A stretch of 64,000 bases of DNA from Halichondria panicea (taxonomy: Eukaryota; Porifera; Demospongiae; Suberitida; Halichondriidae), in the NCBI RefSeq assembly GCF_963675165.1, contig NC_087393.1, positions 1,389,002 to 1,453,001 of the forward strand. Reading direction: 5' to 3'. Below are positions 36,340 to 58,578 of the stretch, in pieces (position 1 is the stretch's first letter; each line of letters begins with the position of its first letter). The position numbers and the translations under genes are program-made. The notes beneath the pieces were generated by a model that was not told the DNA's origin, did no database searches, and worked only from the letters and a program-made list of their open reading frames with translations.

Positions 36340-36955
36340 GGACCAGGTATAGAGATCACTCAGGTGAAACTGGCTAGGGGGGAGGATTTAAACAGGCACA
36401 AAAATTCTGTGTGACAGAATGTGAAGTGCTGAAATTAAATTCACATGCACCTATATACACAGAGATAATTGCATTCTGAAGGCAGAAAAACTGAACCCGT
36501 GTAGAAGTAAACAAGGCAGTGAAATTGGAAGTCCAACTCAAGAGACAGTAACAAAACATTGAGGTAGTTGCAGCAGTCACTCACATGCACCCACACCCAG
36601 ATCCCGATCAAATGTGGCAGAGATAACAACGAAATCACCAGTCCTACATACACAATGAACCTGCATGACCATCAATGGCACACACGTCCAAGGTATATAG
36701 TCCATGCATGCATTCACTGTGGTAGCCATGCCTCAGCTGGAGCACCAAGCATGCATGCACAGTGTTTAGCAATTTGGAGAGACCCAATAGGGTGTCACTG
36801 TCAATAGCAAACGAAAGGTCATGCATGTGAATATGGTAGTGGACGAATAGTGATTGACAAATTAAAGAGTTTGATTCACAAGGTATATATAAGGCTCCAG
36901 TGGGAGTGACTGTTGACGAAGATTATAATATCTACGTTATATACTGATTGAAATG
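36340..36955 (+). pseudogene. NHL-TRIM fragment, copy F (coiled-coil end to NHL repeat 2)
   Basis: It matches copies A and E in order: GAGATCACTCAGGTGAAACT, GAAGTAAACAAGGCAGTGAA, ACATTGAGGTAGTTGCAGCA, ATCAATGGCACACACGTCCA, GTGGTAGCCATGCCTCAG, AGCAATTTGGAGAGACCC and GTAGTGGACGAATAGTGATT. It has many indels, often inserted TGCATGCA or TATATA. RING and B-boxes are absent, so it is dead. It is a sixth trace of the TRIM family. Confidence 0.9.
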
Positions 36956-37321
36956 AACAAAATTAACTCTTCACACCAGAGCGCTTTGTCTAAATAGTCA
37001 CTACATGCATGTATTACATAATTTTCTTCCAATTGAGCAATCTTTAAGGGGCATTTTCTCAATGCTGCCATTTCACAGCTTCGAGTTTCCAACGCGGGCC
37101 TGAAACGAGGTATATGCAAGCTAAACATGTCATTGTGTATAGTTTTGCTCTATCTATTTCTCTTAATTGGTATATAGATTGCGAAAATTGCGAAAATCAT
37201 AGCTTGACGAAGGCCACAGCCTGTCACGTATAATATAATTATGCTTCACAAATGGTCGTAATGCTACACATGCGCATGATGCTCATGCATTGAGGCATTG
37301 GGCCCCAATCATGTAAATGAC

Positions 37322-37512
37322 AATTGAGTTGTGCATGTTTGCCAGACCTGCTGTCCCAGACCCTGATGTGGTGTGGTCCAGGGAGCATGAGACTAGACAG
37401 ATTTCAGCCACCTCACTGCCCGTGACACTCATACACTGTATGGCTTCTCGATGGGACCTCACCAAGAGTGGAGTATAGCTGCTTTTACTGAGACCTATGT
37501 TGCCCTGTATGG
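37322..37512 (-). pseudogene. dead copy of a WDR90 exon (like 16923-17096)
   Basis: On the minus strand, SHREAIQCMSVTGSEVAEIC then LVSCSLDHT is readable, nearly the same as the live exon at about 17.0 kb. An indel breaks the frame at the IRVWD motif. It lies upstream of TRIM copy B, as the live exon lies upstream of TRIM copy A. Confidence 0.92.
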
Positions 37513-37714
37513 CGAGAGATGGTTGAATAATTATATTAAATACATTCATGCATGCATTCAGGTGTATACATGCAGGATGTACCTGCCGTCGCTACGAGTG
37601 TAGTATCGACATTGTATATACATGTATAGAAGTCATAGGACTATGGTTATTACCATCAGGTCCCTAACATTACGCCAGTAATTTAATACGTAATTTACAA
37701 AGAGTAATTGCATG

Positions 37715-37812
37715 CATGCTGGCTAGTATTCTGAGCCCACCATCACACTGTTCACTGACATTCACTACACTGACCAGTCCATCGTTCTGTGTGCGTGCGT
37801 GCGTGCGTGCGT
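37715..37812 (-). pseudogene. dead copy of a WDR90 exon (like 18131-18205)
   Basis: AGTATTCTGAGCCCACCATC and GACCAGTCCATCGTTCTGTG match the live exon and its flanking GT-rich intron, which here has become a GTGC repeat (37794-37813). Confidence 0.85.
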
Positions 37813-38212
37813 GTGAAATAAATGGTACAACCACAACAATTTGAATGCCTTTATCATTTTTACCACATTCACTACATACCATCACTTGATGATAACTTTT
37901 CACAAGCAAAGGGTGGCAACAATGTATGTATACTGACTGCCCCATTGTAGTATTATGCTGTAAAGCTAGGAGGAATCTTTAATGTGAGTCTAACACTATA
38001 ATTATAGTCACAACATGCATATGCACGATGATACATAACATGACTGGATAAATTACCCCTGATTCAGAAGTGTTTCACATTTCTATACATTTCAGGAAAT
38101 CAATGTATACACATGTAAATCCGTGGATCTACATTAAAATTTGTGCTGCACACGTATTGACAATAAACGCATACATACAGTTACAGAAAAACGGGAGAAA
38201 TTATTACGAAGA

Positions 38213-40405
38213 ATGGGTGAACAAAATATGATAAAAGAAGCTATTAAGAAACTAAATGCAAAACTCGAATGCTCGATTTGCCTTGACACTTTCAAGCAAC
38301 CGAAACTCTTGCCATGCTATCCCGTGTTTTGCAAGTCCCCGTGTCCGGAGAAACTAGTGACCAAGGATGGACGCTCCCTCACTTGTCCTACCTGTCGACA
38401 CATCGTCCCACTGTCAGAGAGGGGAGTGGCTGGACTGCAATTAGACTTCCACATTGACAACTTGTTTGAGATACGAGATGCTTTTGATAAAGCTGCAGAA
38501 TTAAGCAAGACCCAATGTGGTAATTGCGAGGAGAGGAAAGCAACGGGATACTGCCGAGATTGTGGAGATTTCATGTGCAATAATTGCCAAGCAGCTCATC
38601 AAGCGCTGAAACTGACAAGGTCTCATCAGATAGTGAACCTTCGGGACTTTCAAAAAGAAGCCGCAAAAATTATCAACGACAAGAAAACAATCCCCACTTG
38701 TGGGAAAAACATAATGGAAATCAACTCAACATCTACTGTGAAACTTGCAAGGAGCTTATTTGCTACGACTGCACCATCCGACTACATAAAGATCATGCAC
38801 GATTACGATCTAGTGGCTGATGTGTTCCCAAGGCACAAGGAAGAGTTTGTTTCAAGTCTCAAACCTGTCAAAGAGAAGCTAGACAAAGTCCAACAAGCAC
38901 TGAAGATACCCTTGCAAAAGATATTCACGACCAAAGAACCACCCTTGAAGCCGAAATTCATAAGGAAATTGACGAGCAACATCTACTGTTGGATCAGCGT
39001 AAAGCAGAGCTTGTGGGAGAGCTGGAAATGATGACTCAGCAAAAGCTAAAAGGCCTAGCCGCACAAAGAGACCAGGTGGAGATCACTCAGGTGAAACTGG
39101 CCAGCTGTCTCGAGTATGCTGAGGGCGCTTGAAACAGGCACAGAATGCGAAGTACTGGAAATTAAAGCTCCTGTACTCAGGAGAATTGAACAGTTAACAA
39201 TTGAATTTGATCAAGACAAACTTCAACCAGAAATAGAGATCACAATGAAATTGAACATGGATAGAAACCTTACAAATGTTACAAGTAGTGTTTAGCAATT
39301 CATGATGAGATGATTGACAGTTGCAGTTTAGAGGGGGAAAATTTGACCAGCACAGAGGTACACAAGGCAGCGAAATTGGAACTTCAACTCAAGAGAGAAT
39401 ATCGGAACATTGAGGTAGTTGCAGCAGTCACTCACAGCCACACCCAGATTCCGGTCAATTGCGAAATTATCAGGAGAAAAAACAAGTACGAAATCACCTA
39501 CACACCAACAAACAGAGGTAAACACGAAATAGACCTGACCATCAATGGCATACACGTCCGAGGTAGTCCATTCACTGTGGTAGCCATGCCTCAGCCGCAC
39601 ACACTGGGAGCATCAAGCAGAGTGATTAGCAATTTGGAGAAACCCTGGAGTGTCGTTGTCAATAGCAACGATTGTGTGATTGTCGTCGAATAATATAGTA
39701 GCAGGTGAATATACTGATCTATGATGAAAATTATAAACAGATTCAAGTATTTAATTCACGATGTAAGGCTCCAGTGGGAGTGGCTGTTGACAGAGATGAT
39801 AATATCTACGTTAGTGATTATAATGACCATAAAGTCCAAAAATTTACCGCCAATAGAGACTTTCTCAAAGAAGTGGGCACTAAAGGTGACCAGATGCTTC
39901 AGTTCAGCTCACCAACAGGAATAGGCTACAACAAAACCAACAACAAGATATATATCAGTGAAAAGAACAACAATCGAGTTCAAGTGTTGAACCCTGACCT
40001 CACATTCCACAGTATCATCAGCGATAATGAATTTAATCATCCTCTTGATGTTTCATTCGATCATATCGGCAATGCATACATACATAGCTAACTGGGCTAG
40101 TCATAATGTGAAGGTATTCCAAAGTAATGGAACGTTGTTGAGAACATTTGCTGCACACGGTAGTGGTCCAGGACAACTAACTAACCCAGCCGCTATAGCT
40201 GTCAGCAATACAGACACGGTGTATGTTGTTGAGATGAGAGGAAGTCGTATCTCGGTATTCAAAACAAATGGAGAGTTCATTTGCTCCTCCGGCAAAATAG
40301 GTAAAAGAGGAGGACCATTCAACTATCCAACTGGAATAGATATATTGACAGTCATGGAAACATTGTAGTTGCAGATCTAGATAACAGACGCCTTTAAGTT
40401 TTTAA
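38213..40405 (+). pseudogene. NHL-TRIM, copy B (full length, several frameshifts)
   Basis: The start (MGEQNMIKEAIKKLNAKLEC) and RING are in frame. A break in B-box 2 near 38705 splits TCGKN from the other frame NQLNIYCETCKELICYDCT. Further breaks lie near 38905 (coiled coil) and 39121. A piece is lost near 39270-39300, a stop (GAATAA) falls near 39690, and further shifts lie near 40080 and 40340. Two RING-region residues also differ from the other copies: CYPVFC instead of CYHVFC loses the zinc-binding His, and PCPEKL replaces PCLEKL. It belongs to the A/E subgroup. No full-length product is possible. Confidence 0.93.
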
Positions 40406-41160
40406 GAACAATATTTACATGCATGTACATAATTATATTATATACGAACACAATAATATTATTTTGTTCAGAAGCTATTCACAATTTTCAACACAGGTAT
40501 TATCTTCTCTGATCTTATGTTGTTGGTAAACTTTTCGAATACCGTATACTGGGTTTCAAACGCGTATAGGTAATTAATTGTGAGTATTGCATTCCTAACT
40601 ATTGTATGCACTTTCCTTTCAAAATGTTAATTTGTTTGCAACCTACGTATATGCCTGCATTCGAAAAACTTAGTATACTATATACATCACTGCCGCCACA
40701 TATTAAGAAAAATGTATTATACATGTGAATGACGTTGTAACGGATTGGAGTTATGCTCTCGCCGGATTTTTTACTTCTACACTTTTTGGTGTTTTCCCCG
40801 GCCAATCCTAGGAACTTTTCACATTGCAAAGTTGAAATTTGACAATAATTATCATCGTGCACATCTGATTTCGTGAGACAGATTGTGGCATGCACAGTCC
40901 TATAGCATTGGCGAATTACTAATTCGATGATCCTACCTATATATAGAACCAAATTGCCAAATTTATATCTTCTAAATTTACAAACTATGTCTGAAAGACA
41001 ATAGGAGCCGGCCAATACTATAATTATGACAGATAAAACATGCTGGAAATTGTATACACTCTCAGAGAACGTTATAGCTATAGTGCTTTGTTATGCTGTA
41101 CTTGTATACATAATATATATAATATATATACCAAAATGGTACAGGCACATGCATGCATGC
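40406..41160. other. stretch without a recognised gene
   Basis: AT-rich DNA between TRIM copy B and the next WDR90 footprint. A frame of 138 codons at 40599-41015 (minus) has no recognisable motif, and I treat it as chance. Confidence 0.5.
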
Positions 41161-41164
41161 AACA

Positions 41165-41310
41165 ATCCTTATATACCTGCTTCCATGACTTCGGCGTGTT
41201 AAGAAGTCCAGAAGCTATATACACCCTCAACACACCATCCTCTGACCCCGTCACACAGAACCCCTCATGGACCGCCAGTGACAGGATGGCCATATTCGCT
41301 TGATGGAAAC
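41165..41310 (-). pseudogene. dead copy of a WDR90 exon (like 22612-22825)
   Basis: On the minus strand, ILSLAVHEGFCVTGSEDGVL then RV is readable, the same as the live exon. It is followed by decay and a TATA insertion. It lies downstream of TRIM copy B, as the live exon does for copy A. Confidence 0.92.
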
Positions 41311-41546
41311 TATGAGTTTTGTGACTGCATGGTGTGAAAAGAAAGAGTATATATGCTATCAGGAGTGGTGCTCCTGATAAATCTATAAAAATGCTTGTTG
41401 CCCAGTGAGTGGGCAGATCAAAGCAATCCAGTGCTCTGTTGTTGCATCACTACCATAGCAACCATTAATATTATGGCATGTTGCACTGTATGTAATGCGA
41501 AATCTCCTTTTTCCACTGCATTTACACACATGCATGCAGTGCAATA

Positions 41547-42197: not shown

Positions 42198-42699
42198 TGT
42201 ATGGCATTGTTGCACTGTGTGAAATTAAATGCAGTGGATGAAATCTGCTTTTTGGCCATGCACCTGCAATTACTCATTGCAGAGGAAGTGGGTGTGGAGT
42301 CAGGGCTACATCACATGACATGATATGCACAGCAGGCTGTCCACTTGTTTGATTTCTTCTAGCTGCTATTATAAAATCACTGACAACTAGAAACAGATCA
42401 ACATTGTAGAGTGTGCTGTAAAGCTAAGAGGAACATTTAATGTGAGTTTCAATCGATTGAGAAATGATACATTTCTAGTACATCAAGTACATGTAGAGCT
42501 AGTCTACACGTACATAACTGATAATTATGTCTAGAACATGACCATTTAATATTTACACAACAGTTCAGGCAACAGCATGGCTGTCCTGTGTGCTTATACA
42601 TATACCAGAGAGTTTCACAAAACTGTACAGAGTTATTACTCTAGATACGTACGAGTTTTGAAATACATACACACACAAACACAGGAGAGCATACGAAGA

Positions 42700-44913
42700 A
42701 TGGACAAACAAATGACAAAAGATGCAATCAAGAAACTGGACACGAAACTCGAATGTTCGATTTGCCTTGACACTTTCAAGCAACCAAAACTCTTACCATG
42801 CTATCACGTATTTTGCACGTCCCCGTGTCTGGAGAAACTAGCAACCAAGGATGGACGCTCCCTCACTTGTCCCACTTGTCGACACATCGTCCCACTGTCA
42901 GAAAGGGGAGTGGCTGGACTGCAATCAGACTTCCACATCGACCACTTGTTTGAGATACGAGATGCATTCGATAAAGCTGGCAATACTAACTGTGAGAACT
43001 GTGAAGACGAGAAAGCAACAGGGTACTGCTGTGACTGCAAGAACCTTGTGTGTGATGATTGCCAAGGTATTCATTCGAGACTGAAACTAACAAAATCCCA
43101 CAAAATCATTTCTCTTGAGAAGTTTGAGGGGACTATTCCAGTGTCCGAGAAAACTGCTTCTTATTGCCCAAAGCATCCAACAAAGACGCTATCACTAATT
43201 TGTGAAACTTGCTCTGTACTTACTTGTATCTACTGTGCACGAAGTGATCATCAAGGGCACAATTACGAACTGATCAGTGATGTTTTCCCCCACCACAAAA
43301 AAGACATAGTGCTGGCTTTAGAACCGCTCAAACAGAAGATAGGAAATGCACAGACAATTCTCCTATCAATCAATACTGCAGTCAAAGAAATTCAAAACCA
43401 AAGGGTCACCGTTGAAGCAAACATACACAGAGAGATTGACGAGCAACATCAACTGTTAGATCAGCGCAAAATAGAACTTGTAGGAGAGCTAGAGATGATG
43501 ACTCAGCAGAAACTAAAGGACCTGGCCACAAAGAAGGACCAGGTGGAGCTGAGCAAGGCGAACATTGTTGGTTGTCTAGACAACACAAGTAGTGTCCTTG
43601 AAACAGGCCCTAAGGGTGAAGTTCTCACAAAGAAGGAAACCCTCTTACGTCAAATCGAAGAAGCAGTTACTGATTATCTCCCAGAGGTGATTGTAGAGAC
43701 AAGAGCTGATATCGAACTGGTCACTGATGGAAAGGAAAAGTGTCAACAAAACTGTCGAGAGTTTCTGGAAATTCGAAAAGGAGGACCTGTAAGTCTCAAA
43801 AACTGTCGTATCTCAGAAGGGGTAAAAAATCCCATGTACATAGTGACTGGAGAAGAACAAACGATAGTATTTCAAGCCAAAAATGAACAAAATGAAATAT
43901 TTGAAGGCAAGCTCCGACTTGAAGCCAATGTTATACACTCTGACACCCAAAACGAGCCAGTTAACAGACACGAAATAATCAAGCAACAAAATGGACAGTA
44001 TTATATTATTTATCGACCTGTGAAAAGAGGGAAGCATATGCTATATCTTACTGTCAACGGGCACCAATTTCAAGACAAACCCTTTCCAATTGTAGTTCTT
44101 CCCTCATCCAAACAAGTCCAGGTTGTGAGAAAATTAGACAAAGTGAGAGGAGTAGCTATCAACAGCACGGGAGAGATGATCGTTGTGAATAAAAATGGAA
44201 CTCAAATATCTGTGCTGAAACCGACTGGAGAGAAAATACGTACATTCGGTACACAAGGTATAGAGAATGGACAACTATCAAATGCATACGGAGTAACTGT
44301 CGATAAACATGACAACATTTATGTGTCTGATTATGGAAATAATCGTATTCAGAAGTTTAAACGAGGAGGGCAGTTTGTGAAAGCAGTTGGAAACACAGGA
44401 AATCAAGCATTGGAATTTCAATCGGCTGTTGACATATGCTATAACCACGTAGATAACAATCTGTATGTTGTTGATCAAAACAACCACCGAATACAAGTGT
44501 TGTCAACGGAGCTGCAATTTGTAAGCACTTTCGGAACACAAGGAGCACAATATGGGCAGCTCAAACATCCCATAAGCTGTGCTTTTGATAGTGCGAACAA
44601 CTTGTATGTGACAGAATGGGACAACAGCCGTGTACAGGTCTTCACCACAGAGGGAGAATTTCTTAGCGCATTTAGCAACAAAGCTAATAATGTAACGTTA
44701 TATCATCCACTGTCAATTGCTATAGACAGTAATGATACAGTATTTGTGAGCGAAGAAGGCAAGAAGTACGTGAATATCTTCAACACCCAAGGAGAATATA
44801 TAACAGCTATCGATATAGAAGAACAATTTGGAAATATTTACGGATTGGTGACCAACCAAAATGATCAACTCATAGTTTCAGACCGAAGCTATGGATATCT
44901 GAAAGTGTATTAG
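42700..44913 (+). CDS. NHL-TRIM protein, copy C (intact, 737 aa)
   Basis: Intact RING (C-x3-C variant, CYHVFCTSPC), B-box 1 (NCENCEDEKATGYCCDCKNL), B-box 2 (YCPKHPTKTLSLICETCSVL), coiled coil with REIDEQHQLLDQRK, filamin-type Ig ending FQDKPFPIVVLPSS, and NHL repeats such as DNIYVSDYGNNRIQKF. I take the ATG at 42700 (MDKQMTKDAIKKLD), which aligns with the starts of all other copies. The frame is open upstream to 42577, but that part crosses an acceptor-like CACAG and is unlikely to be coding. It forms a subgroup with copy D and differs strongly from A/E in B-boxes and NHL, while the RING-coding DNA is almost the same. Predicted E3 ligase; target unknown. An AATAAA near 45060 could be its poly(A) signal. 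Confidence 0.93.
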   Translation: MDKQMTKDAIKKLDTKLECSICLDTFKQPKLLPCYHVFCTSPCLEKLATKDGRSLTCPTCRHIVPLSERGVAGLQSDFHIDHLFEIRDAFDKAGNTNCENCEDEKATGYCCDCKNLVCDDCQGIHSRLKLTKSHKIISLEKFEGTIPVSEKTASYCPKHPTKTLSLICETCSVLTCIYCARSDHQGHNYELISDVFPHHKKDIVLALEPLKQKIGNAQTILLSINTAVKEIQNQRVTVEANIHREIDEQHQLLDQRKIELVGELEMMTQQKLKDLATKKDQVELSKANIVGCLDNTSSVLETGPKGEVLTKKETLLRQIEEAVTDYLPEVIVETRADIELVTDGKEKCQQNCREFLEIRKGGPVSLKNCRISEGVKNPMYIVTGEEQTIVFQAKNEQNEIFEGKLRLEANVIHSDTQNEPVNRHEIIKQQNGQYYIIYRPVKRGKHMLYLTVNGHQFQDKPFPIVVLPSSKQVQVVRKLDKVRGVAINSTGEMIVVNKNGTQISVLKPTGEKIRTFGTQGIENGQLSNAYGVTVDKHDNIYVSDYGNNRIQKFKRGGQFVKAVGNTGNQALEFQSAVDICYNHVDNNLYVVDQNNHRIQVLSTELQFVSTFGTQGAQYGQLKHPISCAFDSANNLYVTEWDNSRVQVFTTEGEFLSAFSNKANNVTLYHPLSIAIDSNDTVFVSEEGKKYVNIFNTQGEYITAIDIEEQFGNIYGLVTNQNDQLIVSDRSYGYLKVY

Positions 44914-45532: not shown

Positions 45533-46040
45533 GTATGGGTAGAAAATTTCGAGGTGTTTTTAATTTCGCGTTTTTTGTGGGTGGCTGCAGAACACGAAAA
45601 TTAAAACCCGCGAAAGGCTTTGTTTACGCATGCGAGATAGTGAAATTTACTACCCGCGAAATTTTCCAAATATCGGTAAGACAGAATATTGAATTGCACG
45701 AAAATGTACACCCTCGAAATTCACTTTAGGTTGAGTGGGTGTTGCAATAATTATTGCAACACCCACTCAACCTAAAGTGAGTGGTGTGGTTTGCGCATGC
45801 GCATTAGGTGTGTTGCTGAAAAAACAGAATTGAGCGGCGGATGGACCAGAAACAGAACTACCGTATGGGTAGAACATTTCGAGGGTGTAAATTTTCGTGC
45901 AATTCAATATTCTGTCTTACCGGTATTTGGAAAATTTCGCAGGTAGTAAATTTCACTATCTCGCATGCGTAAACAAAGCCTTTCGCGGGTTTTAATTTTC
46001 GTGTTCTGCAGCCACCAACAAAAAACGCGAAACAATGGCT
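45533..46040. mobile_element. two inverted copies of a CCGTATGGG element around a perfect 60-bp palindrome
   Basis: The left arm includes GTGGCTGCAGAACACGAAAA and GAAATTTACTACCCGCGAAA. The right arm (about 45868-46035) carries the inverses, TTTTCGTGTTCTGCAGCCAC and TTTCGCAGGTAGTAAATTTC. Both begin TACCGTATGGGTAGAA. At 45721-45780 every base pairs with its partner, giving a 30+30 bp palindrome with no loop. The frames at 45421 and 45858 are mirror artefacts. Confidence 0.85.
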
Positions 46041-46614: not shown

Positions 46615-46750
46615 TATTTATGAGCCGTGCTGAGAAGTCCAGAGGCCACACCCTCAACATGCACCCTGTCCTCTGAAACACACATGTATTGACAAACAGG
46701 ATGGATTTGTAGTGAGCCTCAAAATTATGTTCAGTCTTGTGGCTGCATGT
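46615..46750 (-). pseudogene. dead copy of a WDR90 exon (like 22612-22825)
   Basis: TGAGCCGTGCTGAGAAGTCC then AGAGGCCACACCCTCAACA and TGGATTTGTAGTGAGCCTCA match the live exon; the middle is deleted. It lies downstream of TRIM copy C. Confidence 0.88.
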
Positions 46751-46904: not shown

Positions 46905-47040
46905 GACTAACATGATTCTAGCCAGTACTCCAGCCCATCTTCATTGACTTCTATTGTACTGACTGATGGACCTCCAGTGACAGGATGGCTATACCCCCTG
47001 GTTCGCTATGCCATATATATTATAATTATTATCTTGAGAG
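46905..47040 (-). pseudogene. chimeric WDR90 relic (two exon types fused)
   Basis: AGCCAGTACTCCAGCCCATC then TTCATTGACTTC is like the live exon at 18.15 kb. It runs straight into CCAGTGACAGGATGGCTATA CCCCCTGG, which is from the exon at 22.7 kb. The two are 4.4 kb apart in the live gene with TRIM A between them, so this relic records a deletion of a TRIM copy. Confidence 0.75.
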
Positions 47041-47394
47041 ATGGAAAATATGGTTGAAAAAAGTTGGTGGGAAAAGAGGAGCATTTAACATTAATTAACA
47101 CATGTAAAAGAGCTTCTACACGTACATGCATGTACTGCAAATTGGTGACTGTATTTTTGGAAGTGAAAAACCTTGCGAATGAGCCAAATCACAGCATAAA
47201 AATTGACTTTGCGATTTAACTGCAAGGATCGTGTGGTAAATACGGTACTACTTTATAGGTTTTGCGATTTTATTATTGCAAATTGATCAACCCTCGCAAA
47301 CTTCGCATATGTTTGATACTCGCAAAACATTCTAGTAATACGGTAGTTGCATATATGTAGTTCTCAGCACAGATAGCCACAGACACCACCCACC

Positions 47395-47520
47395 TAACTG
47401 TTCACTATAGACCTACTGTCCCAGACACTTGGTCCAGGACTGAGGTAGCACAAGACCAGACATCGATGGGTCCCATCAGACTGGCTCCAGAAGCCCTATG
47501 TTGCCCTATGGGAGAGATGA
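47395..47520 (-). pseudogene. dead copy of a WDR90 exon (like 16923-17096), shortened
   Basis: GACCTACTGTCCCAGACACT, CATCGATGGGTCCCATCAGA and GCCCTATGTTGCCCTATGG correspond to the live exon with internal deletions. It lies upstream of TRIM copy D. Confidence 0.82.
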
Positions 47521-47994
47521 TTGAATTTGTGTACATGCTTGATTCATGTTCAGGTTATATACCGTAGTTACAGCACTGCCGTAATTTAAGCGCCAACTCA
47601 GACTGTGAACGCAATTTTTTAGGTGCTAAAAAGCGCTAACGGTCAATGTACACGTTTTTAAAAGGTATGCAAAGGCAAGTCGCCTATACTTTTTGGCCTA
47701 TATAATTATAACAATTATTATGTTCATGCATTTGAGCTGTAACTACACTAGATTCACCTATGTACCACTGCACTAGCTGTAGCGCTGTAGCGCATAAGCG
47801 CCAGCTCGGATTGAACACAATTCTTGCGATTCTAAAAGCGCCACTCCAAAGTGTAGTTTACATCAACTATATCCTACCACATAAGTAAATCTAAGGTTAT
47901 TATGCTAATATTGCGTCGAGTGGAAGAATATTAATTGCATTGCCATAGAGAATCCATGTGATGTAGCATAAGAATATTAATTGCCATACTAGTA

Positions 47995-48080
47995 CTGCAG
48001 TGGTTCAGTGGTTCCAGCCAATATTATTCAGATTTCCACTGCACTGCATGACGACCATATACAGTCGGTCCCCATGTGAA
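47995..48080 (-). pseudogene. dead copy of a WDR90 exon (like 18131-18205)
   Basis: GTGGTTCCAGCCAATATTAT and TCCACTGCACTGC match the live exon, with a short duplication of GTGGTTC and insertions. Confidence 0.75.
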
Positions 48081-48380
48081 ATTGTATAACCACGACAATA
48101 TTCATTGCATTGTTTAATGTTTAATGAATAACCACAATATTTACTATAGCATCATGTGATGTAGCTTTGTCCCCACGCCCTTGAGCTATTGATTCCTATG
48201 ATTCTCTATTAATTAATAATTAAACATTAATTTATAGAAACAGATCTTCATTGTAGAGTGTGGCAGTGCTGTGAAGCTAAGAGGAACAATTCAGTGTGAG
48301 TTTCATTAGACAGAAACGATATAACCATAAGTTTTTACATGTAGATACGTAGGCGCAGGTATGTATGTACATAGTCAATA

Positions 48381-48722
48381 CCGTAAGACCTCGATTTAAG
48401 GCGACCCTCCAAATATGCGACACCCAGGAGCTTCAGCAATTTTCTGACCTCTAAAAATAGCGACAGCTTCGTTGACAATTATGTTTTAATGTCGCGTTCT
48501 AAATAGAGGTAAATCTAGCCACTCCCTAGCCTCGGTTGTAGCCCATTGGAAAATCAGTGTTTTTAAGCGGCCTAAAATCGAGGCAAATAGACTCTGTAAA
48601 GTTAGATGCGACCGTCTAAATATGTGACACCAGGACTTCAATATAATTTTTCAACCTCTAAAAGAAGCGACCTCTGGCTTCGTAATTATTAAAAAGTGTC
48701 GCTTTAAATCGAGGTATTACGG
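48381..48722. mobile_element. MITE with CCGTAAGACCTCGATTTAA ends, just before TRIM copy D
   Basis: The left end is CCGTAAGACCTCGATTTAAG and the right end is TTAAATCGAGGTATTACGG, flanked by TA on both sides. It ends 26 bp before the TRIM D ATG, between the conserved upstream block (donor at 48296) and the acceptor-like ACACAG, so it would lie in the proposed 5' intron. A decayed relative lies at 58805-59090. Confidence 0.8.
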
Positions 48723-48748: not shown

Positions 48749-50960
48749 ATGGCTGAACAAATGACAAAAGATGTGATTAAGAAACTGGACACAAAACTCG
48801 AATGCTCGATTTGCCTTGATACTTTCAAGCAACCGAAACTCTTGCCATGCTATCACGTATTTTGCAAGTCACCATGTCTAGAGAAACTAGTGACCAAGGA
48901 TGGACGCTCCCTCACTTGTCCCACCTGTCGACACATCGTCCCACTGTCAGAGAGGGGAGTGGCTGGACTGCAATCAGACTTTCACATCGACCACTTGTTT
49001 GAGATACGAGATGCATTTGATAAAGCTGGCAATACTAACTGTGAGAACTGTGAAGACGGGAAAGCAACAGGGTACTGCTGTGACTGCAAGAACCTTGTGT
49101 GTGATGATTGCCAAGGTATTCATTCGAAACTGAAACTAACCAAATCCCACAAAATCATTTCTCTTGAGAAGTTTGAGGGGACTATTCCAGTGTCCGAGAA
49201 AACTGCTTCTTACTGCCCAAAGCATCCAACAAAGACGCTATCACTAATCTGTGAGACTTGCTCTGTACTTTCTTGTATCTACTGTATACTAAGTGATCAT
49301 CAAGGACATAAGTGTGAACTGATCAGTGATGTTTTTCCCTATCACAAAAAAGACATATTGCTAGCTCTAGAACCGCTCGAACAGAAGATAGAAAACGCAC
49401 ATAAAATGCTTCAATCAATCGCTAACGTGGTAAAAGAAATCCGAGACCAAAGAGCCACCCTTGAAGCCAACATACACAAAGAGATTGACGAGTAACATTA
49501 ACTGTTAGATCAGCGCAGGACAGAGCTTGTGGGAGAGCTAGAAATGATGACTCAGCAGAAACTAAAGGACCTGGCCACAAAGAGGGACCAGGTGGAGCTG
49601 AGCAAGGCGAACATTGTTGGCTGTCTGGAAAACACAAGTAGTGTCCTTGAAACAGGCCCTGAGGGTGAAGTGCTCACAAAGAAAGAAACTCTCTTACGAC
49701 AAATCGAAGAAGCAGTTACTGATTATCTCCCAGAGGTGATTACAGACACTAGAGCCGATATCGAACTGGTCACTGATGGAAAGAACGAATGTCAACAAAA
49801 CTGTAGAGAGTTTTTGGAAATTCGAAAAGGAGGACCTGTAAGTCTCAAAAACTGTCGTATCTCAGAAGGGGTAAAAAATCCCATGTACATAGTGACTGGA
49901 GAAGAACAAACGATAGTATTTCAAGCCAAAAAGGAACAAAACGGAATATTTGAAGGCAAGCTCAAACTTGAAGCCAATCTTATACACTCCGACACCCGAA
50001 ACGAGCCAGTTAACACACACAAAATAATCAAGCAACGAAATGGACAGTATAATATTATTTATCGACCCATAAAAAGAGGGAAACATATGCTGCATATCAC
50101 TGTCAACGGGCACCAATTTCAAGACAAACCCTTTCCAATTGTAGTTCTTCCCTCATCCAAACAAGTCCAGGTTGTGAGAAAATTAGACAAAGTGAGAGGA
50201 GTAGCTATCAACAGCACGGGAGAGATGATTGTTGTGAATAAAAATGGAACCTCAAATATCTGTGCTGAAACCAACTGGAGAGAAAATACGTACATTCGGT
50301 ACACGTATAGAGAATGGACAACTATCAGATGCATACGGAGTAACTGTCGATAAACATGACAACATTTATGTGTCTGATTATGGAAATAATCGTATTCAGA
50401 AGTTTAAACGAGGAGGGCAGTTTGTGAAAGCAGTTGGAAACACAGGGAATCAAGCATTGGAATTTCAATCGGCTGTTGACATATGCTATAACCACGTAGA
50501 TAACAATCTGTATGTTGCTGATCAAGGCAACCACAGAATACAAGTGTTGTCAACAGAGCTGGAATTTATAAGGGCTTTCGGAACACAAGGAGAACAAAAT
50601 GGACAATTTACAAATCCCGCAGGTTGTGCTTTTGATAGTGCGAACAACTTGTATGTGACAGACTGGGGCAACAGCCGTGTACAGGTCTTTACAACAGAGG
50701 GAGAATTTCTTAGCGCATTTAGCAACAAAGCTAATGATGAAACGTTATATCATCCACTGTCAATTGCTATAGACAGTAATGATACAGTATTTGTGAGCGA
50801 AGAAGGCAAGAAGTACGTGAATATCTTCAATACCCAAGGAGAATATATAACAGCTATCGATATAGAAGAACGATTTGAAGATATTTACGGATTGGTGACC
50901 GACCACAATGATCAACTTATAGTTTCAGATCGAAATTATGGATATCTGAAAGTATACTAG
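48749..50960 (+). pseudogene. NHL-TRIM, copy D (one stop codon and one frameshift, otherwise near-identical to C)
   Basis: RING and both B-boxes are intact, then a TAA at 49493 falls where copy C has CAA (in ...EIDEQ). The frame reopens and continues through the coiled coil and filamin domain. One extra C near 50250 shifts it again in the first NHL repeat, after which NHL repeats run in the new frame to a stop at 50960. The rest of the sequence stays very close to copy C, so the damage is recent. A 248-aa RING-B-box protein could still be made from 48749-49495 and might act as a dominant fragment; that is speculation. A sequencing error at one site cannot be excluded, but two are less likely. 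Confidence 0.88.
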
Positions 50961-51469
50961 ACTAGACAAACTGTTGTTGTGTGATGTAATAATAATTGTA
51001 CAGAAAAGAAAAGAAACCATTTGGGGTAGCCAAAGTCAATGTTGCACGTATGAATGCAAACCAAAATAACAGTGGAACTCCTATACAAAAGACATGCATG
51101 CATGCATAGGGGAATAAAATTGTGTCCATTACACATGCAGAGGTGCATGCATGTCCTTTATTGAGGGGTGTTTTTATTATATTCATTTGATATCTGAGAA
51201 CCTCGCATGCATGTGTACCCCAAAATGGCGGCTATCAAAACGTGACGTCAGAACTACATGCACCCACTGCATGCAATAAGTCTTGGATTTTTCTTCAAGG
51301 CTTTAGGGTGGCCGTTAAAAAGGGTCCCACTACAGATACAAATCATGCTCTAAGCTCACGAAAAAGAGAAAATAACTTTCTATATGTTATCTAGATCTAC
51401 TGTGATAAAAAAATAATGGTGTGTGCACCTTGAACATAGTGCACCAAAGAAACACCACCCACCTACCTG

Positions 51470-51655
51470 TTAGACCTGATATCCCAGATGGTGTGGTCCA
51501 GGGAGCACAAGACTAGACAGACCTCAGTCACCTCACTTCCCGTGACACTCATATACCCGGCCTCTCGATGGGACCTTATCAGAATGGAGTAGCGCTGCTT
51601 CTACTGTCATTGACATCTAGGAGCCCTATGTTGCCTTGTATGGGAAAGCATGTAT
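51470..51655 (-). pseudogene. dead copy of a WDR90 exon (like 16923-17096)
   Basis: GGTGTGGTCCAGGGAGCACA then AGACTAGACAGACCTCAGTC and GAGCCCTATGTTGCCTTGTA match the live exon; a few indels break the frame. It lies between TRIM copies D and E. Confidence 0.9.
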
Positions 51656-51781
51656 AATTCATTCAGGTCAGTGTTCAGATATAATGAAAATATACGAGGT
51701 TATTATGAGGTTCCTGATATTGCGCCTCTGAGTGCAAAAGCCCGGAGACGAAGGAAATAACAATTGGCAAAATTACTTACA

Positions 51782-51862
51782 GTGTTCCAGCCAGTATTCT
51801 GAGCCCGAGCTCTTCTTCACTGATTTTTCTACTACCGACTGATCCATCGCGTTCTGTGTGTG
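51782..51862 (-). pseudogene. dead copy of a WDR90 exon (like 18131-18205)
   Basis: TTCCAGCCAGTATTCTGAGC and GACTGATCCATCGCGTTCTG match the live exon and its GT-rich edge. Confidence 0.82.
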
Positions 51863-51879
51863 GGTGAATCATGTATCAA

Positions 51880-52025
51880 GAGTGTCCGAGAAAACTGCTT
51901 TTTACTGCCCAAAGCATCCAAAAAAGACGTTATCACTAATTTGTAAGACTTTGTTCTGTACTTACTTGTATCTACTGTATACTAAGTGATCATCAAGGAC
52001 TGAAGTGCGAACTGATCAGTGACTA
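51880..52025 (+). pseudogene. B-box 2 fragment of a C/D-type TRIM
   Basis: GTGTCCGAGAAAACTGCTTT then TTACTGCCCAAAGCATCCAA and AGTGATCATCAAGGACTGAA match copy D around 49190-49330. Only about 145 bp remain, wedged between two WDR90 exon relics. It suggests one more duplication followed by deletion. Confidence 0.88.
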
Positions 52026-52107
52026 TAACACCCTCTTTCCTAGGCCAATTTAATATAGAGCAGTGTTTATACGGCTTGGGAATGAGGCTAATGGTAATAT
52101 AGCTACT

Positions 52108-52195
52108 AGCTCAGTGGTTGCATACTGTACTGCAGTAGTTCCAAGTATTCTGACCCATTTTCACTGACATCCACTGCACAGGCCAGTCCATCATG

Positions 52196-52200
<5 letters not shown>
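52108..52200 (-). pseudogene. dead copy of a WDR90 exon (like 18131-18205), second in this block
   Basis: AGTATTCTGACCCATTTTCA and CAGGCCAGTCCATCATGTTC match the live exon. It runs into a TG tract exactly where the live intron has GTGTGTGTG. Confidence 0.85.

Positions 52201-52271
<71 letters not shown>
52199..52271. repeat. TG microsatellite, about 36 units
   Basis: A nearly pure TG run, an expanded form of the short GT run next to the live WDR90 exon at 18.2 kb. It creates false His-Thr and Cys-Val frames. Confidence 0.95.
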
Positions 52272-52273
<2 letters not shown>

Positions 52274-52621
52274 GTGGATGGATGTGTGTATTAAGTGTGT
52301 ATATAGGTGGATGGATGTAAACAGAGTAAGAGTGGGTAGTGACACAACAATATTCATTACCTATCTCAACCACATTCGATATTCATAGCAGTATCACATG
52401 ACATTCATGGCAAATCACAACTCTTGGAAATCAGAATCTGCTTGGAAATATACTATATAGTGGACAGAGACTGAGTGAGTCATGATAGAGTCTACAACTG
52501 TATACCCTAAATTGTAGAGTGTATTGTAAAGCTAAGAGAAACTTTTAATGTGAGTTAACATTTTGATACTAAATAACATCAGGAGCGCATGAATACATGA
52601 ATTGATCATAATTATGCCAAA

Positions 52622-53122: not shown

Positions 53123-53129
53123 TTACTTT

Positions 53130-54470
53130 TTCTTGCTGTTGTAATTGTTCATCCATAAACAAAAAAGAATGAGGCAGCGAAGAAAGAAATGGGCGTATAC
53201 AGTTAAGAAAAAGTAAGGCCTGATTTGGGAAATCGCGTGATCCACAGGAATTTTTATGAACGTGGGCGATATTTAGCCCACAATCGTAACGTAAGGTATT
53301 CCCACGCATTCAGAGTTAATTAATAAGACTGTACTGAGACACTGCCCAAGGTACCAAGCTACTGCACTGCAAGTCAGGGAACCAGCGTGGCCAGTTCTGC
53401 ATGGTGACAGTATATCTACCTGCTAGATGATAATGATGACTAAGCTACATGTATTAGTTTAGATCTAGCATTTAGATATTAGAATCTAAATACACGATCT
53501 AGACTAGTAGATCTAGCTAGCTAGCTTGTATAAACAGCTTGCAAACTTCCAGTTTCAAGTCCATGTCCAGCCATGGTATTATTAGTTATAGATCTCTACG
53601 TGGGCAGTCCAACATCTCTAGCACAGCATGCCCACGCTCATTTTCACCATTATTTTCATGCGACTTCCCGATACAGGCTCTCCTTTTTCCTAACTCTACC
53701 TCTTTTCTTCTTTATTCCTCCAATTAATACCGTATTTTATCTTATTGACCGATTAATACAGTTATTGAACGATTGTGATAAAGACCAGAAAAAGGAGAGC
53801 CTGTGTAGAGGCTACATGTAGACTTATTTACAATGTCATGTAGACTAGACTAAAATTGCTTACCATTGTGAGCCTACAGACGAGGTTGGTCACATTTCAA
53901 CGGAGGAATGTGCGTGCACGGAGAAAAAAGAAAAGATTTACGGAAACCTACAGGAAAAAGCATGAAAAGTAGCTATCCTAGCTAAAGCCAAAAGGTTGCA
54001 AACGATTGTAGCACTCTATACTAGTAGCAAATGATGCTAACAATCAATACCCAGTCACACTAGAAAGTGAGTAGTATAGAAGCAATGAATGAGCCAGAAA
54101 CTAAGTTAATCACAAACTTCCAGTTGTTGCTGCACTTTCCTTGATTTTTTGACTCCTGTCCTAATGTAGCAGGTATAGCAATGATAGGTTTACAACACTA
54201 CTACGATTCATTAACAGGAGATGTAATACAGAGAGCTTAGGAATGCGACAAAAGTGCTGACTCAGCGGGTTGAAGGCGAATTCGAGGCCTAACACTGTTT
54301 GCATGGCATGTTTCGCCGCGGTTTAAAAACGTGACTAACCTCCTCTGGTGAGCCTATATCTATATTACAATAGGGCTTGTCATGTATCTCTGCATGGTTT
54401 AACACTAATTAACCGCCCACATACAATGTTATTTTTAAAATAGGCTGAATACAGTATAAACAGCTGTATG
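53130..54470. other. stretch without a recognised gene, upstream of TRIM copy E
   Basis: It holds an inverted repeat (ACAGGCTCTCCTTTTTC near 53673, GAAAAAGGAGAGCCTGT near 53787), dense GATCTAG words at 53460-53525, and AACCTCCTCTGG near 54342, shared with 28112. Short frames here look like chance. Confidence 0.5.
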
Positions 54471-54534
54471 GAAACAATACATACACACAGAAAGACAGAA
54501 GAAGAAAATTGTATTTGGTACGGATGTTGGTGAA

Positions 54535-56706
54535 ATGGCTAAACAAGTTACGAAAGATGCGATTAAAAAACTAGACACGAAACTCGAATGCTTGATTTGC
54601 CTCGATACTTTTAAGCAACCAAAACTCTTGCCATGCTATCACGTATTTTGCAAGTCCCCATGTCTAGAGAAACTAGTGACCAAGGATGGACGCTCCCTCA
54701 CTTGTCCCACATGTCGACACATTGTCCCATTGTCAGAGAAGGGAGTGGCTGGACTGCAATCAGACTTCCACGTCGACCACTTGTTTGAGATACGAGATGC
54801 ATTCGATAAAGCTGCAGAATCAAGCAAGACCCAATGTGGTAATTGCGAGGAGAGGAAAGCAACCGGATACTGCCGAGATTGTAGAGATTTCTTGTGCAAT
54901 AATTGCCAAGCAGCCCATCAAGCGCTGAAACTGACAAGGTCTCATCAGATAGTGAGCCGCCAGGAATTTCAAGAACAGGCCACAAACATTAGCACAGCCA
55001 AGAAAACGATCCCCACTTGTGGGAAACATGGAAATCAACTCAAGATTTACTGTGACACTTGCAAGGAGCTTATCTGCACTGACTGCACCATCCGACTGCA
55101 TAAAGACCACAATTACGACCTAGTGGCTGATGTGTTCCCAAGGCACAAGGAAGACTTTGTCTCAAGTCTTAAACCTGTCAAAGAGAAGCTAGACAAAGTC
55201 CAACAAGCACTGAAGGATTTTGATACCCTTGCAAAATATATTCACAACCAAAGAGCCACCCTTGAAGCCGAAATTCACAAGGAGATTGATGAACAGCATC
55301 TACTGTTGGATCAGCGAAGAACTGAGCTTGTGGGAGAGCTGGAAATGATGACTCAGCAGAAGTTAAAAGACCTGGCCACACAAAAGGACCAGGTGGAGAT
55401 CACTCAGGTGAAACTGGCCAGCTGTCTCGAGTATGCTGAAGTGGCTTTTGAAACAGGCACAGAATGCGAAGTACTGGAAATGAAAGCTCCTGCACTCAAG
55501 AGAATTGAACAGATATTGACTGAATTCGACCAAGACACTATTCAACCGGAAATAGATACCAAAATGAAATTGATTACAAATGGAAAAGAACAACTAAAGA
55601 AGTCATGCAAATCCTATTTAAGAATACGTGATGATAAGATACGTTATAGTCTAAAAGGGGAAAACTTAGCCGGTGTAGAAGTAAACATGGCAATGGAATT
55701 CGAACTTCAACTCAAGAAGGAGTATCAAAACGTTGAGGTAGTTGCAGCAGTCACCCAGACCCCGATCAAATGTGAGATTATCAGGAGAGATAATAAGTAC
55801 GAAATCACCTACACACCCACAAACAGAGGTAAACACAAATTGGACCTGACCATCAATGGCGAACACGTCAAAGGTAGTCCATTCACTGTGGTAGCCATGT
55901 CTCAGCCACACACACTGGGAGCACCAAGCAGAGTGATTAGCAATTTGAAGAGACCATCGGGTGTCGCTATTAGTAACAGCTGTCATGTGATTGTAGCAGA
56001 GCGTGGTAGTGGTCAAATACTAATCTACAATGGCCTCTATGAACAGATTCAAGCATTTGATTCACGAGGTAAGGCTCCAGTGGGAGTGGCTGTTGACAAA
56101 GATGATAATATCTACATCAGTGATCGGGATAATAACAAAATTAGAAAATTTACCGCCAATGGAGATTTTCTCAAAGAAGTGGGCACTAAAGGTGACCAGA
56201 GGCTTCAGTTCAACAAACCAAGCGGAATAGGCTACGACAAAACTAATGACAAGATATATGTTGGTGACCAGTATAACAATCGAATTCAAGTATTGAACCC
56301 TGACCTAACGTTCCACAGTACCATCAGCGATAATGAATTTAAAAACCCTCTCGATGTATCATTTGACCGTACTGGCAATGCGTATGTAGTTAATTGGGCT
56401 AGCCACACTGTGAAGGTGTTTCAAAAGAACGGAAAGTTGCCGAGAACATTTGGAACATACGGTAGTGGTCCTGGACAATTAAGTAACCCAGCCGCTATAG
56501 CTGTCAGCAATACAGACACGGTGTATGTTGTTGAGATGTACGGACATCGTATCTCGGTATTCAAAACAAATGGAGAGTTCATTTGTTCTTTTGGCAATAA
56601 GGGGAAGAAAGGAGGACAATTCAATGATCCAACTGGAATAGCTATCGACGATTACGGAAACATTGTAGTTGCAGATCGAGGAAATGAACGACTTCAAGTA
56701 TTTTAA
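54535..56706 (+). CDS. NHL-TRIM protein, copy E (intact, 723 aa)
   Basis: Intact RING (ECLICLDTF...CYHVFCKSPC, with the family's C-x3-C spacing), B-box 1 (QCGNCEERKATGYCRDC), B-box 2 (TCGKHGNQLKIYCDTCKEL), coiled coil, filamin-type Ig (ending KGSPFTVVAMSQPHTLGAPS) and about five to six NHL repeats (for example DDNIYISDRDNNKIRKF), ending IVVADRGNERLQVF. It starts MAKQVTKDAIKKLD, as in the other copies. By protein it groups with A and B, but in the coiled-coil stretch GELEMMTQQKLKDLAT it agrees with C and D rather than A, a sign of gene conversion. Predicted E3 ligase or RNA-binding regulator; target unknown. It is the last TRIM of the array. Confidence 0.93.
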   Translation: MAKQVTKDAIKKLDTKLECLICLDTFKQPKLLPCYHVFCKSPCLEKLVTKDGRSLTCPTCRHIVPLSEKGVAGLQSDFHVDHLFEIRDAFDKAAESSKTQCGNCEERKATGYCRDCRDFLCNNCQAAHQALKLTRSHQIVSRQEFQEQATNISTAKKTIPTCGKHGNQLKIYCDTCKELICTDCTIRLHKDHNYDLVADVFPRHKEDFVSSLKPVKEKLDKVQQALKDFDTLAKYIHNQRATLEAEIHKEIDEQHLLLDQRRTELVGELEMMTQQKLKDLATQKDQVEITQVKLASCLEYAEVAFETGTECEVLEMKAPALKRIEQILTEFDQDTIQPEIDTKMKLITNGKEQLKKSCKSYLRIRDDKIRYSLKGENLAGVEVNMAMEFELQLKKEYQNVEVVAAVTQTPIKCEIIRRDNKYEITYTPTNRGKHKLDLTINGEHVKGSPFTVVAMSQPHTLGAPSRVISNLKRPSGVAISNSCHVIVAERGSGQILIYNGLYEQIQAFDSRGKAPVGVAVDKDDNIYISDRDNNKIRKFTANGDFLKEVGTKGDQRLQFNKPSGIGYDKTNDKIYVGDQYNNRIQVLNPDLTFHSTISDNEFKNPLDVSFDRTGNAYVVNWASHTVKVFQKNGKLPRTFGTYGSGPGQLSNPAAIAVSNTDTVYVVEMYGHRISVFKTNGEFICSFGNKGKKGGQFNDPTGIAIDDYGNIVVADRGNERLQVF

Positions 56707-57285
56707 TCGCAATCAAACTCACAACAAGAAAACTCACAACAAGAACATCATTATATTCACAAGGTTAATTGTTAGCAGAATAATTACAATACATGTTAAT
56801 TAATAGAGTATACCAGCACGTATCGTATATTTAATTATTATTACAGTAACAATTGACAGTTAAGAATAAGTTAAATGTATTATACGTAATTGTAAATGTA
56901 TCGGTTCTAAATTTTTGGGCACTGCAAATCACAATGCGCATGTATGTAAAATTAATTACGGTAGTATAATAATATATAATTATTACTAAGGAGCCAATGT
57001 CAATTATGTAAGCTCTCTAATGCCTTTATTAGTGCTATTGCAGTATTAAGAAAGCTATCTAGTTTGATAAATTATCGTATAATTATATCGATTACGGACG
57101 TGGTTTAATAGTCAATCATATGCGAATGATTCTGCACAATCCCTATTGCGTTTCTACTAGCATGGTCAGTCACTCTTCGCGTGTCTTTTATTTGTGATTG
57201 CGAAAAATAGCAATTTTCAATCGAAAAGAGCCTAGCATTCTCAACCCAGTATACGACGGTTACGTATACGGGTAGCTGTTAGATG
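56707..57285. other. AT-rich stretch without a recognised gene
   Basis: It lies between TRIM copy E and the next WDR90 footprint. I see no coding potential and no clear repeat. Confidence 0.5.
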
Positions 57286-57289
57286 TCAG

Positions 57290-57520
57290 CAACAATCCTG
57301 ACCTTCCTTTCATGAGTTGTGCTGATAAGTACAGAGGCCACACCCTCAATACAACACCATCCTCTGACCCCGTTAAGCCGTCACACAAAACCCCTCTTGG
57401 ACTGCGAGTAATATACAGGATGGACACACACCGTGGGTTGCTAGGCAACGTATGTCTTATGTATTTGTAGTGGATCTCAAAAATAATTATGCTCAGTCTT
57501 GGTTGAAGCAAAGCTGTTGG
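57290..57520 (-). pseudogene. dead copy of a WDR90 exon (like 22612-22825), longest relic
   Basis: TGACCTTCCTTTCATGAGTT through GTTGCTAGGCAACGTATG and TTTGTAGTGGATCTCAAAAA follows the live exon along its whole length, with indels. It lies downstream of TRIM copy E. Confidence 0.93.
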
Positions 57521-57894
57521 GAAAGAGGAAGTACATAACATTAGGAGTGCATGATACGCGTAGAGCTGATGCTACTATACATGTGCAATGTTCATGTACA
57601 CAGCATGCGTTAAAGCAGCACCATCGTTGACAAGACATTATAATCAATCAATCACTGAATAATTAATCAATTGGATTAACAGAGAGGGTAGGCACAATAG
57701 GCTCATAGCCTCTCAAGGTGCTCCCCGAGTATACATGAAATGATCAATAATAATCATGGAAATAAAATTATAGTCAGTGAGTAAAAAGATGTTGTTTCCT
57801 AATTGATTTATATTACTTGTGAGTGCGTTCCATAAAAACAGCTATTTTATATAGTTTACAGAGTGAAACAGTTAAAATATTTTGTCTATATCCC

Positions 57895-58175
57895 TCTTTG
57901 TTGAATCTCTTCTACTTTTTCCCACTTCGAACATTTTGAACAAGTTCATATTATGAGGGTGCTGCAATGTAGCCTCGAGACCAGGCCGTTCGTTGTCTGA
58001 AAGAACGCCTGGTCAATCCAATGTAAAACTCGTCTAATTGCATGGTCCAGGAATTTCTTGGATCGATAATTGCTCGCAACAAGATGTAAAACCGTACCTA
58101 CACTGGAACTTGACCAAGCATTCTTTCAGACAACGAATGGCCTGGTTTACGTCTCGAGGCTAGCTGCAATGTTGG
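57895..58175 (-). pseudogene. dead copy of WDR90 exon 2, interrupted by a foldback element
   Basis: Read on the minus strand, CAGCACCCTCATAATATGAA then CTTGTTCAAAATGTTCGAAG corresponds to live exon 2 (CAGCACCCTCATGTGAGTCT, GTTCAAGGTATTCGGAGTG). A foldback at 57971-58162 (AGCCTCGAGACCAGGCCGTT / GGCCTGGTTTACGTCTCGAG) has inserted at its edge and duplicated GCTGCAATGT on both sides. Confidence 0.85.
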
Positions 58176-58480
58176 TGCATATAATTTTTAATATGTGCAC
58201 AATGCTGCATGTTTACGTAGTCTCGTGATACCAGCCGGTTCTCATTAGTACTGTGGGAGGGAGAGAACCGTCTGGTTACTCAGGGGCATACTTTTCTGTC
58301 GTCGTGTGTGCAATGCTGGTGGAGTATAATATTCATTGTGAGCCTTTACCCACAAAAATGTAAGACAGTCTACATGTAGTCTAGTAGTTTTTTACGTGTA
58401 AGAATAGATCTACTAGCTAGTGCATATTAAATTGTGGGTTTATCAAATAGTGGATGATTTTACATTCAACAAAGACGTAC

Positions 58481-58494
58481 TTACCATTGCTCAT
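58481..58494 (-). pseudogene. dead copy of WDR90 exon 1
   Basis: On the minus strand, ATGAGCAATG|GTAAGTAC matches live exon 1 (ATGAGCAGTG|GTAAGTCT) in start codon, length and donor. It stands in front of a matching promoter copy, but only a broken exon 2 follows. Confidence 0.88.
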
Positions 58495-58578
58495 CTAGCT
58501 CGCGGAAGCCAGAGCTAGAGCTAGAGCTAGAGAGACCCAAAACAATACATCTACTTTCCCGCCACATGTCTTTCTTTA

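Follow-up and report, generated by a model that had tools for sequence, protein, structure and literature searches.

A gene of the NHL-TRIM family, TRIM A, was found inside an intron of WDR90 in a 64,000-nucleotide stretch of the sponge Halichondria panicea (contig NC_087393.1, here C17:1389002-1453001; genome 131 Mb, 39 contigs), together with an array of TRIM copies (B to E) interspersed with dead pieces of the WDR90 exons that surround TRIM A. This stretch is referred to as the window, and coordinates without a contig name are positions within it. Probably, a block of WDR90 was duplicated in tandem together with its nested TRIM gene, the WDR90 copies then decayed and one type of TRIM body was replaced in some of the units. 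The features of the host gene were as follows.

9545-26635, minus strand, WDR90 host gene (PF05018, PF23393 and exon peptides).
∼26.63-26.55 kb, minus strand, probable WDR90 exon 1 (DNA match of 26563-26632 to 57891-57965).
26373-25528, minus strand, CFA20 exon of WDR90 (PF05018, E 4.7e-28).
22617-22830, minus strand, WDR90 exon X (splice end 22617, other end approximate; X/Y/Z GT-AG solution).
18133-18203, minus strand, WDR90 exon Y (X/Y/Z GT-AG solution).
16921-17094, minus strand, WDR90 exon Z (exon peptides; X/Y/Z GT-AG solution).
18560-20752, plus strand, TRIM A, open (RING, two B-boxes, filamin and NHL by Pfam).

Exons X, Y and Z were joined in frame by script with exactly one GT-AG solution, which places TRIM A inside the X-Y intron (18204-22616), antisense to WDR90. 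On these predicted exons TRIM A is a nested gene, contained within one intron of a spliced host. A preliminary description of the window had already placed it in a WDR90 intron, with no mention of its antisense orientation. The host combines an N-terminal CFA20 domain and WDR90-type propellers within one gene, as expected of WDR90/POC16. The remaining 6 of the 7 genome matches to PF05018 sit on C10 and C13. PF23393 (WDR90/POC16 second propeller) matched the joined exon peptides with an E value of 1.4e-43; 6 of its 32 genome matches, including the top four, were at this locus and the others were taken to be other WD40 genes. WD40 exons extend to ∼9.5 kb, and the exon at ∼26.6 kb was presumed from its resemblance to be exon 1. 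FAP52 and other proteins were matched when solved structures were searched with the joined peptides using phmmer; no chain named WDR90 was among the best 60 of the 337 matches.

Relics of WDR90 were located by lenient blastn combined with tblastn. Every relic coordinate of the preliminary description was recovered, and two pieces (57891-57965 and 58551-58720) were added, giving 13 WDR90-derived pieces among TRIMs B-E: three of Z, four of Y, four of X, one of the probable exon 1 and one of an upstream stretch.

37330-37566, minus strand, Z relic, unit B (82% over 247 columns, E 3e-53).
37722 to ∼37835, minus strand, Y relic, unit B (host alignment continues into TRIM B).
41162-41292, minus strand, X relic, unit B (82% over 131 columns, E 1e-26).
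46620-46739, minus strand, X relic with an internal deletion, unit C (88% over 57 and 84% over 45 columns).
46963-47045, minus strand, second, separate X relic beside TRIM C (73% over 85 columns, E 1e-7).
47480-47555, minus strand, Z relic, unit D (78% over 81 columns, E 1e-7).
48006-48108, minus strand, weak Y relic, unit D (64% over 125 columns, E 7e-6 in a local search).
51455-51643, minus strand, Z relic before the two Y relics (79% over 204 columns, E 5e-39).
51780-51866, minus strand, first of two Y relics (77% over 90 columns, E 8e-10).
52103-52218, minus strand, second Y relic, unit E (78% over 120 columns, E 2e-18).
57292-57542, minus strand, X relic, unit E (75% over 266 columns, E 2e-43).
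57891-57965, minus strand, relic of probable WDR90 exon 1, unit E (75% over 75 columns to 26563-26632).
58551-58720, minus strand, copy of the stretch upstream of WDR90 at 26891-27058 (66% over 179 columns).

Comparison of the host region with the array, as the preliminary description had proposed, gave all 13 relics in host order and in host orientation relative to the TRIMs. From left to right the array reads TRIM fragment; Z, Y, B, X; C, X, X; Z, Y, D; Z, Y, fragment of the C/D type; Y, E, X, exon 1, upstream stretch. It therefore consists of six TRIM-bearing units with later deletions, two more than the four described before. The earlier claim that B, C, D and E are each flanked by host exons in the same order stood as to order and strand and had to be narrowed as to the flanks: unit C has relics to its right only and unit D to its left only. 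A and B align unbroken across exon Y, the intron and the TRIM. Between TRIM C and its X relics lies a fold-back element with arms of 157 bases (45564-45720 and 45876-46032; 97.5% alike). The stretch beyond unit E at 58810-59082 aligns to 48392-48710, before TRIM D (66% over 326 columns); weaker matches to this pair on C6 point to either a dispersed repeat or a further unit edge.

The searched pieces were confined to this locus. When the 27 WDR90 exon peptides were compared with the TRIM-masked array, 8 tblastn matches at E ≤ 0.01 were obtained, all to X, Y or Z; 40 shuffled peptide sets gave 0-2 matches each and 10 altogether. The sole match beyond 27 kb to any other exon peptide falls within the open reading frame (ORF) of TRIM C (E 0.01). 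Exon X DNA had 5 matches genome-wide, its own exon and 4 pieces at three places in the array, and exon Z DNA had 3, its own exon and two places in the array; the second X relic of unit C and the Z piece of unit D fell below the sensitivity of these searches. DNA of 26.55-27.10 kb had 2 matches in the genome, itself and 58.55 kb. No tblastn relic in the array was obtained for the 17 exon peptides that lie downstream of Z, from 16.7 to 9.5 kb, which puts the left edge of the unit between exon Z and the 16.7-kb exon; at the other end the copy in unit E extends to at least 27.06 kb. These decayed pieces, which lie in order on one strand and occur in this array only, bear out the proposal that a part of WDR90 was duplicated together with its nested TRIM.

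Decay was assessed on the relics of units B and E; the short ones of C and D were not counted. Substitutions at codon positions 1, 2 and 3 were 16/121, 16/121 and 20/121 between host and B, 19/133, 19/134 and 25/134 between host and E, and 22/117, 25/118 and 22/118 between B and E. Such near-flat counts are as in dead sequence, and the relics of both units carry frame-breaking indels and keep the intron, as unprocessed pseudogenes do; the host-exon decay proposed before is upheld for these two units. Synonymous divergence (Ks) between the TRIMs was 0.27 for A-B, 0.33 for A-E and 0.35 for B-E, and uncorrected divergence between the B and E relics was 0.195. For A, B and E these values are of the same order, consistent with the TRIM and host pieces having been copied together. 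The suggested comparison of TRIM and relic divergence gave agreement for A, B and E and a mismatch for C: the first X relic of unit C is 84-88% identical to the host exon, so that this unit looks as young as the others, whereas its TRIM body is old relative to that of A.

The remaining TRIM copies and fragments, and the leader found upstream of them, were placed as follows.

36327-36962, plus strand, A-type TRIM fragment of a further unit (71% to A over 542 columns; tblastn).
38213-40405, plus strand, TRIM B, broken (9 frameshifts and 3 stops aligned to A).
42700-44913, plus strand, TRIM C, open, with an A-like RING and a different body.
48749-50960, plus strand, TRIM D, broken (1 frameshift and 2 stops aligned to C).
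51881-52041, plus strand, C/D-type TRIM fragment between two Y relics, the remains of another unit (92% to D over 142 bp; tblastn).
54535-56706, plus strand, TRIM E, open, A-type, intact against A.
18353-18398, plus strand, leader of TRIM A, ending in donor-like TGTGAGT.
37948-37993, plus strand, leader of TRIM B (35/46 to C, 31/46 to A and E).
42406-42451, plus strand, leader of TRIM C, like the A and E leaders.
52514-52559, plus strand, leader of TRIM E, ∼2 kb upstream of its ORF.

That some TRIMs had stayed intact was confirmed: C and E are the only open frames in the array, in addition to A inside WDR90. By Pfam, A, C and E carry RING, B-boxes, filamin and NHL repeats in TRIM-NHL order, an arrangement named TRIM subfamily C, class VII (PMC3503706). 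Leader likeness was taken as an ungapped count of bases. A-C and C-E leaders were alike at 39/46 positions and A-E at 38/46; adjoining stretches gave 10-16/46. The leader stands at the same place in all five units A-E and ends in TGTGAGT in each, which reads as a splice donor; it is probably a 5′ untranslated exon. A genome-wide search for it gave matches in this window only, with none at the C6 locus or the fetched C3 loci. An array of retrogenes, the copies of which would lack flanking genomic sequence, does not fit, as the flanks and the leader were copied too.

The TRIMs themselves are mosaic. Between C or D and the A-type copies (A, B, E and one copy on C6), Ks was 1.6-3.0 over the ORF and 0.23-0.45 in codons 2-92; between A and C, synonymous sites were saturated or nearly so beyond ∼codon 92. 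Identity of A and C falls after ∼nt 300, with a second patch of 76% at nt 721-840. Two trees of the body were calculated with 25 and 21 of 46 rows, leaving out fragments, one duplicate and most C3 copies, and in the second tree also C13, C11, C14b and C3earlyC. In these C and D group with C3late, C15 and C14a (support 97/95 and 98/99). Likeness of the RING extends beyond the window. In codons 2-92, Ks of A or C versus copies on C3, C9 and C15 was 0.49-0.65, and A versus C11 gave 0.75; for the same pairs with C3, C9 and C15, codons 92-180 and 320-731 were saturated (proportion of synonymous differences 0.76-1.00) and codons 180-320 gave Ks 1.1-2.4. Across contigs, nt 121-240 show 93-98% DNA identity among A, C and the copies on C3 and C15, a likeness that could come from conversion across chromosomes or from strong synonymous constraint. 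It is the leader and the relics, not the RING, that indicate a local origin of C and D, and replacement of one type of TRIM body downstream of the RING would be the simplest account of unit C. On C15 (L050:2463-2739) a second RING-like stretch lies near a TRIM, 74-80% identical to the array RINGs.

The NHL-TRIM family was not born at the WDR90 array, since a single array on C3 (5.88-6.31 Mb) comprises 31 related ORFs or fragments, 54-62% identical to TRIM A. TRIM A had at least 62 matches in the genome (61 of 336 candidates scored), and a first look for NHL repeats returned 830 candidates, several per gene, of which 150 were scored. In the scored subset the best match of C outside the array was 56% in amino acids. 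One A-type copy, 79% identical to TRIM A, lies on C6. In a four-row DNA tree A and B split from E and C6 with full bootstrap support (200 replicates), which makes the C6 copy roughly the age of the splits within the array. Retroposition of the C6 copy is possible, its homology being nearly confined to the ORF, but was not adopted, as ∼45 bases before the ATG look alike by eye. The suggestion of the preliminary description that a nested gene had here turned into a family is accordingly not supported. Past ∼codon 92, C and D do not derive from A by recent copying, and the A-type copy on C6 shows no WDR90 pieces.

Passenger domains were scanned in one C3 unit (L022), at the left edge of the C3 array and in the window. 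In L022 the C-terminal domain of an ILVD/EDD dehydratase precedes the TRIM (E 2.9e-42), and no passenger domain follows it. To our knowledge, this dehydratase family is usually absent from animals. A genome search with the C-terminal domain (19 rows, second exons included) placed it at ten sites in C3:5.88-5.96 Mb and one on C9 (3.95 Mb), each piece preceding a same-strand TRIM at a distance of usually ∼1 kb, and of ∼5 kb in one unit; the other 21 of the 31 C3 members (5.99-6.31 Mb) had no match in this search. Pfam matches of the N-terminal domain that reach ahead of profile position 273 (from ∼125) occur in the leftmost C3 unit only, some of them broken by in-frame stops, and the genome gave no complete ILVD/EDD gene. 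The upstream stretch has a 74% DNA copy in one further unit (L058:6556-6980 to L057:7235-7649), which means that at least one other unit has lost longer pieces by decay. The C9 copy is 91.7% identical to a C3 unit over 3.76 kb, passenger included. The seven C-terminal pieces that were compared have no stops and differ at 88, 12 and 161 sites of codon positions 1, 2 and 3 (21 pairs); unlike the WDR90 relics, they may be under constraint. C3 thus holds a second TRIM array with gene fragments as cargo. Because these come from a gene that does not enclose its TRIMs, nesting may be incidental to array growth, and the best reading is that segmental duplication, with truncated neighbours dragged along, is how the NHL-TRIM arrays of this genome grow.

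For the WDR90 array we infer a founder at the locus of A and tandem exchange as the process. An NHL-TRIM with its own leader would have come to lie antisense between X and Y. Tandem segmental duplication would then have copied a block of WDR90 with the TRIM, the left edge falling just past exon Z and the right edge, in unit E, past the probable exon 1 to at least 27.06 kb, and smaller units would have been duplicated anew. WDR90 at the left would have stayed open while its partial copies decayed, leaving, besides A, only C and E with open frames. In some units, most simply in the C/D ancestor, the TRIM body downstream of ∼codon 92-97 would have been swapped through recombination within the RING segment, where family members are unusually similar in DNA. 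The direction, with A first, is the parsimonious one.

Several observations weigh against this history. Seven exon peptides from 23.1 kb through the CFA20 exon left no tblastn relic, and the gap between 22.85 and 26.5 kb needs later deletions. No repeated unit junction was found, the sequence left of Z and right of X sharing nothing beyond chance; unconstrained sequence is highly diverged. The second X relic of unit C is just 73% identical to the host exon, and TRIM Ks is somewhat above relic divergence, though of the same order. The C6 locus has no WDR90 pieces, giving merely tblastn noise at E ≥ 0.005, and its TRIM is either parent or daughter of the array; a grouping of A, B and E without C6 had a p value of 0.30 in the approximately unbiased (AU) test. 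One clade of A, B, E and C6 with C and D was only marginally rejected (16.3 log units, AU p 0.048). Nonsynonymous divergence (Ka) from a C3 copy is lower for A (0.11) than for C (0.35) in codons 180-320, and lower for C (0.38) than for A (0.55) in codons 320-731. The body of A is therefore mosaic too, and the body tree mixes histories and does not tell which type is the newcomer. The RING being alike between A and the C3, C9 and C15 copies (Ks 0.49-0.62), it is alone no sign of a local origin of C and D.

The chief rival holds that two old TRIM types resided in the WDR90 intron before the duplication, that units kept one or the other and that local conversion kept leader and RING alike. The age of both bodies, the lack of a close donor in the scored subset and the marginal rejection of a single clade all suit it, and the A-C patch at nt 721-840 fits repeated conversion. 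Masked tblastn, however, gave no C/D-type remnant in the introns of A, B and E and no A-type remnant beside C and D, and a separate Y relic precedes each of TRIM E and the C/D fragment at 51.9 kb, as for one TRIM per unit. We regard two residents as possible and replacement of the body as the better account. It is less plausible still that the array came first and that TRIM A was later placed in an intact WDR90 by conversion from a copy. Conversion in the family is suggested by the RING likeness across chromosomes, and A and B are sisters (99/97), but extra steps are required, and wherever Y and X both survive a TRIM already lies between them. Duplication of WDR90 first, with TRIMs inserted independently into several dead copies, agrees with the single open frames of the TRIM ORFs and with a C6 copy sharing little beyond its ORF; it is disfavoured as very improbable by the common position of the leader and the unbroken alignment of A and B. 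An assembly or haplotype artefact is scarcely credible, as the TRIM copies differ by 7% (C-D) to 16% (B-E) in DNA and carry private frameshifts and stops.

More tentatively, and with somewhat less than even confidence, the NHL-TRIM arrays of this genome may be modular. Leader and alike RING would stay with the locus, and the body of B-box, filamin and NHL would be exchanged between lineages by recombination at the RING. Duplications would drag truncated neighbours (WDR90, ILVD/EDD), leave a datable record and let units move between chromosomes (C3, C9). Elsewhere in the window, minisatellite-like direct repeats were noted at 5165-5738 and 62634-63284.

Dead pieces of a conserved gene provide an internal clock and a unit map of a family's expansion, neither of which is available for most tandem arrays. 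From them it emerges, as it would not from the TRIM sequences alone, that TRIM bodies of very different age sit in units of similar age, and body exchange at the RING becomes testable. That a second array carries a different passenger gene suggests that the family grows in this way more generally. A literature search of partial coverage returned no paper describing a tandem array in which a nested gene is accompanied by relics of its host's exons, and none on NHL-TRIM arrays of sponges.

Among known tandem families, Sdic of Drosophila is a chimera of two neighbouring genes and not a nested gene carried with its host. In human, F8A1, F8A2 and F8A3 lie in int22h repeats of ∼10 kb that are nearly identical and homogenised by conversion, with the outer copies 495 and 571 kb away (PMC7725122). 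As here, a single-exon gene antisense in a host intron was copied outside its host within a larger repeat; the array copies in the sponge differ in being diverged, close by and accompanied by decayed host exons on both sides. Breakpoints of the human RCCX modules fall inside neighbouring genes, so that TNXA remains as a truncated gene on the opposite strand and STK19 as a 914-base 3′ end (STK19B) (PMC8362596). The same passenger-fragment process is seen in the window, as units of one orientation with colinear partial copies of an otherwise single-copy neighbour. The RCCX passengers, in contrast, flank or overlap the module genes without enclosing them, and RCCX is a copy-number polymorphism. 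The zebrafish NLR-B30.2 genes (PMC4852459) are likewise a large family in which conversion acts differently by domain; their NACHT is alike only within groups, whereas here the RING is alike across chromosomes and the body diverges. Sdic shares with the array a tandem family, widespread gene conversion and copies differing at their 3′ ends (PMC7475035). Segmental duplication with truncated passengers is thus already known from RCCX and, for a nested gene, from F8A/int22h. New here are two arrays with different passengers in one genome, host exons that serve as a clock, and the chimeric TRIMs thereby exposed.
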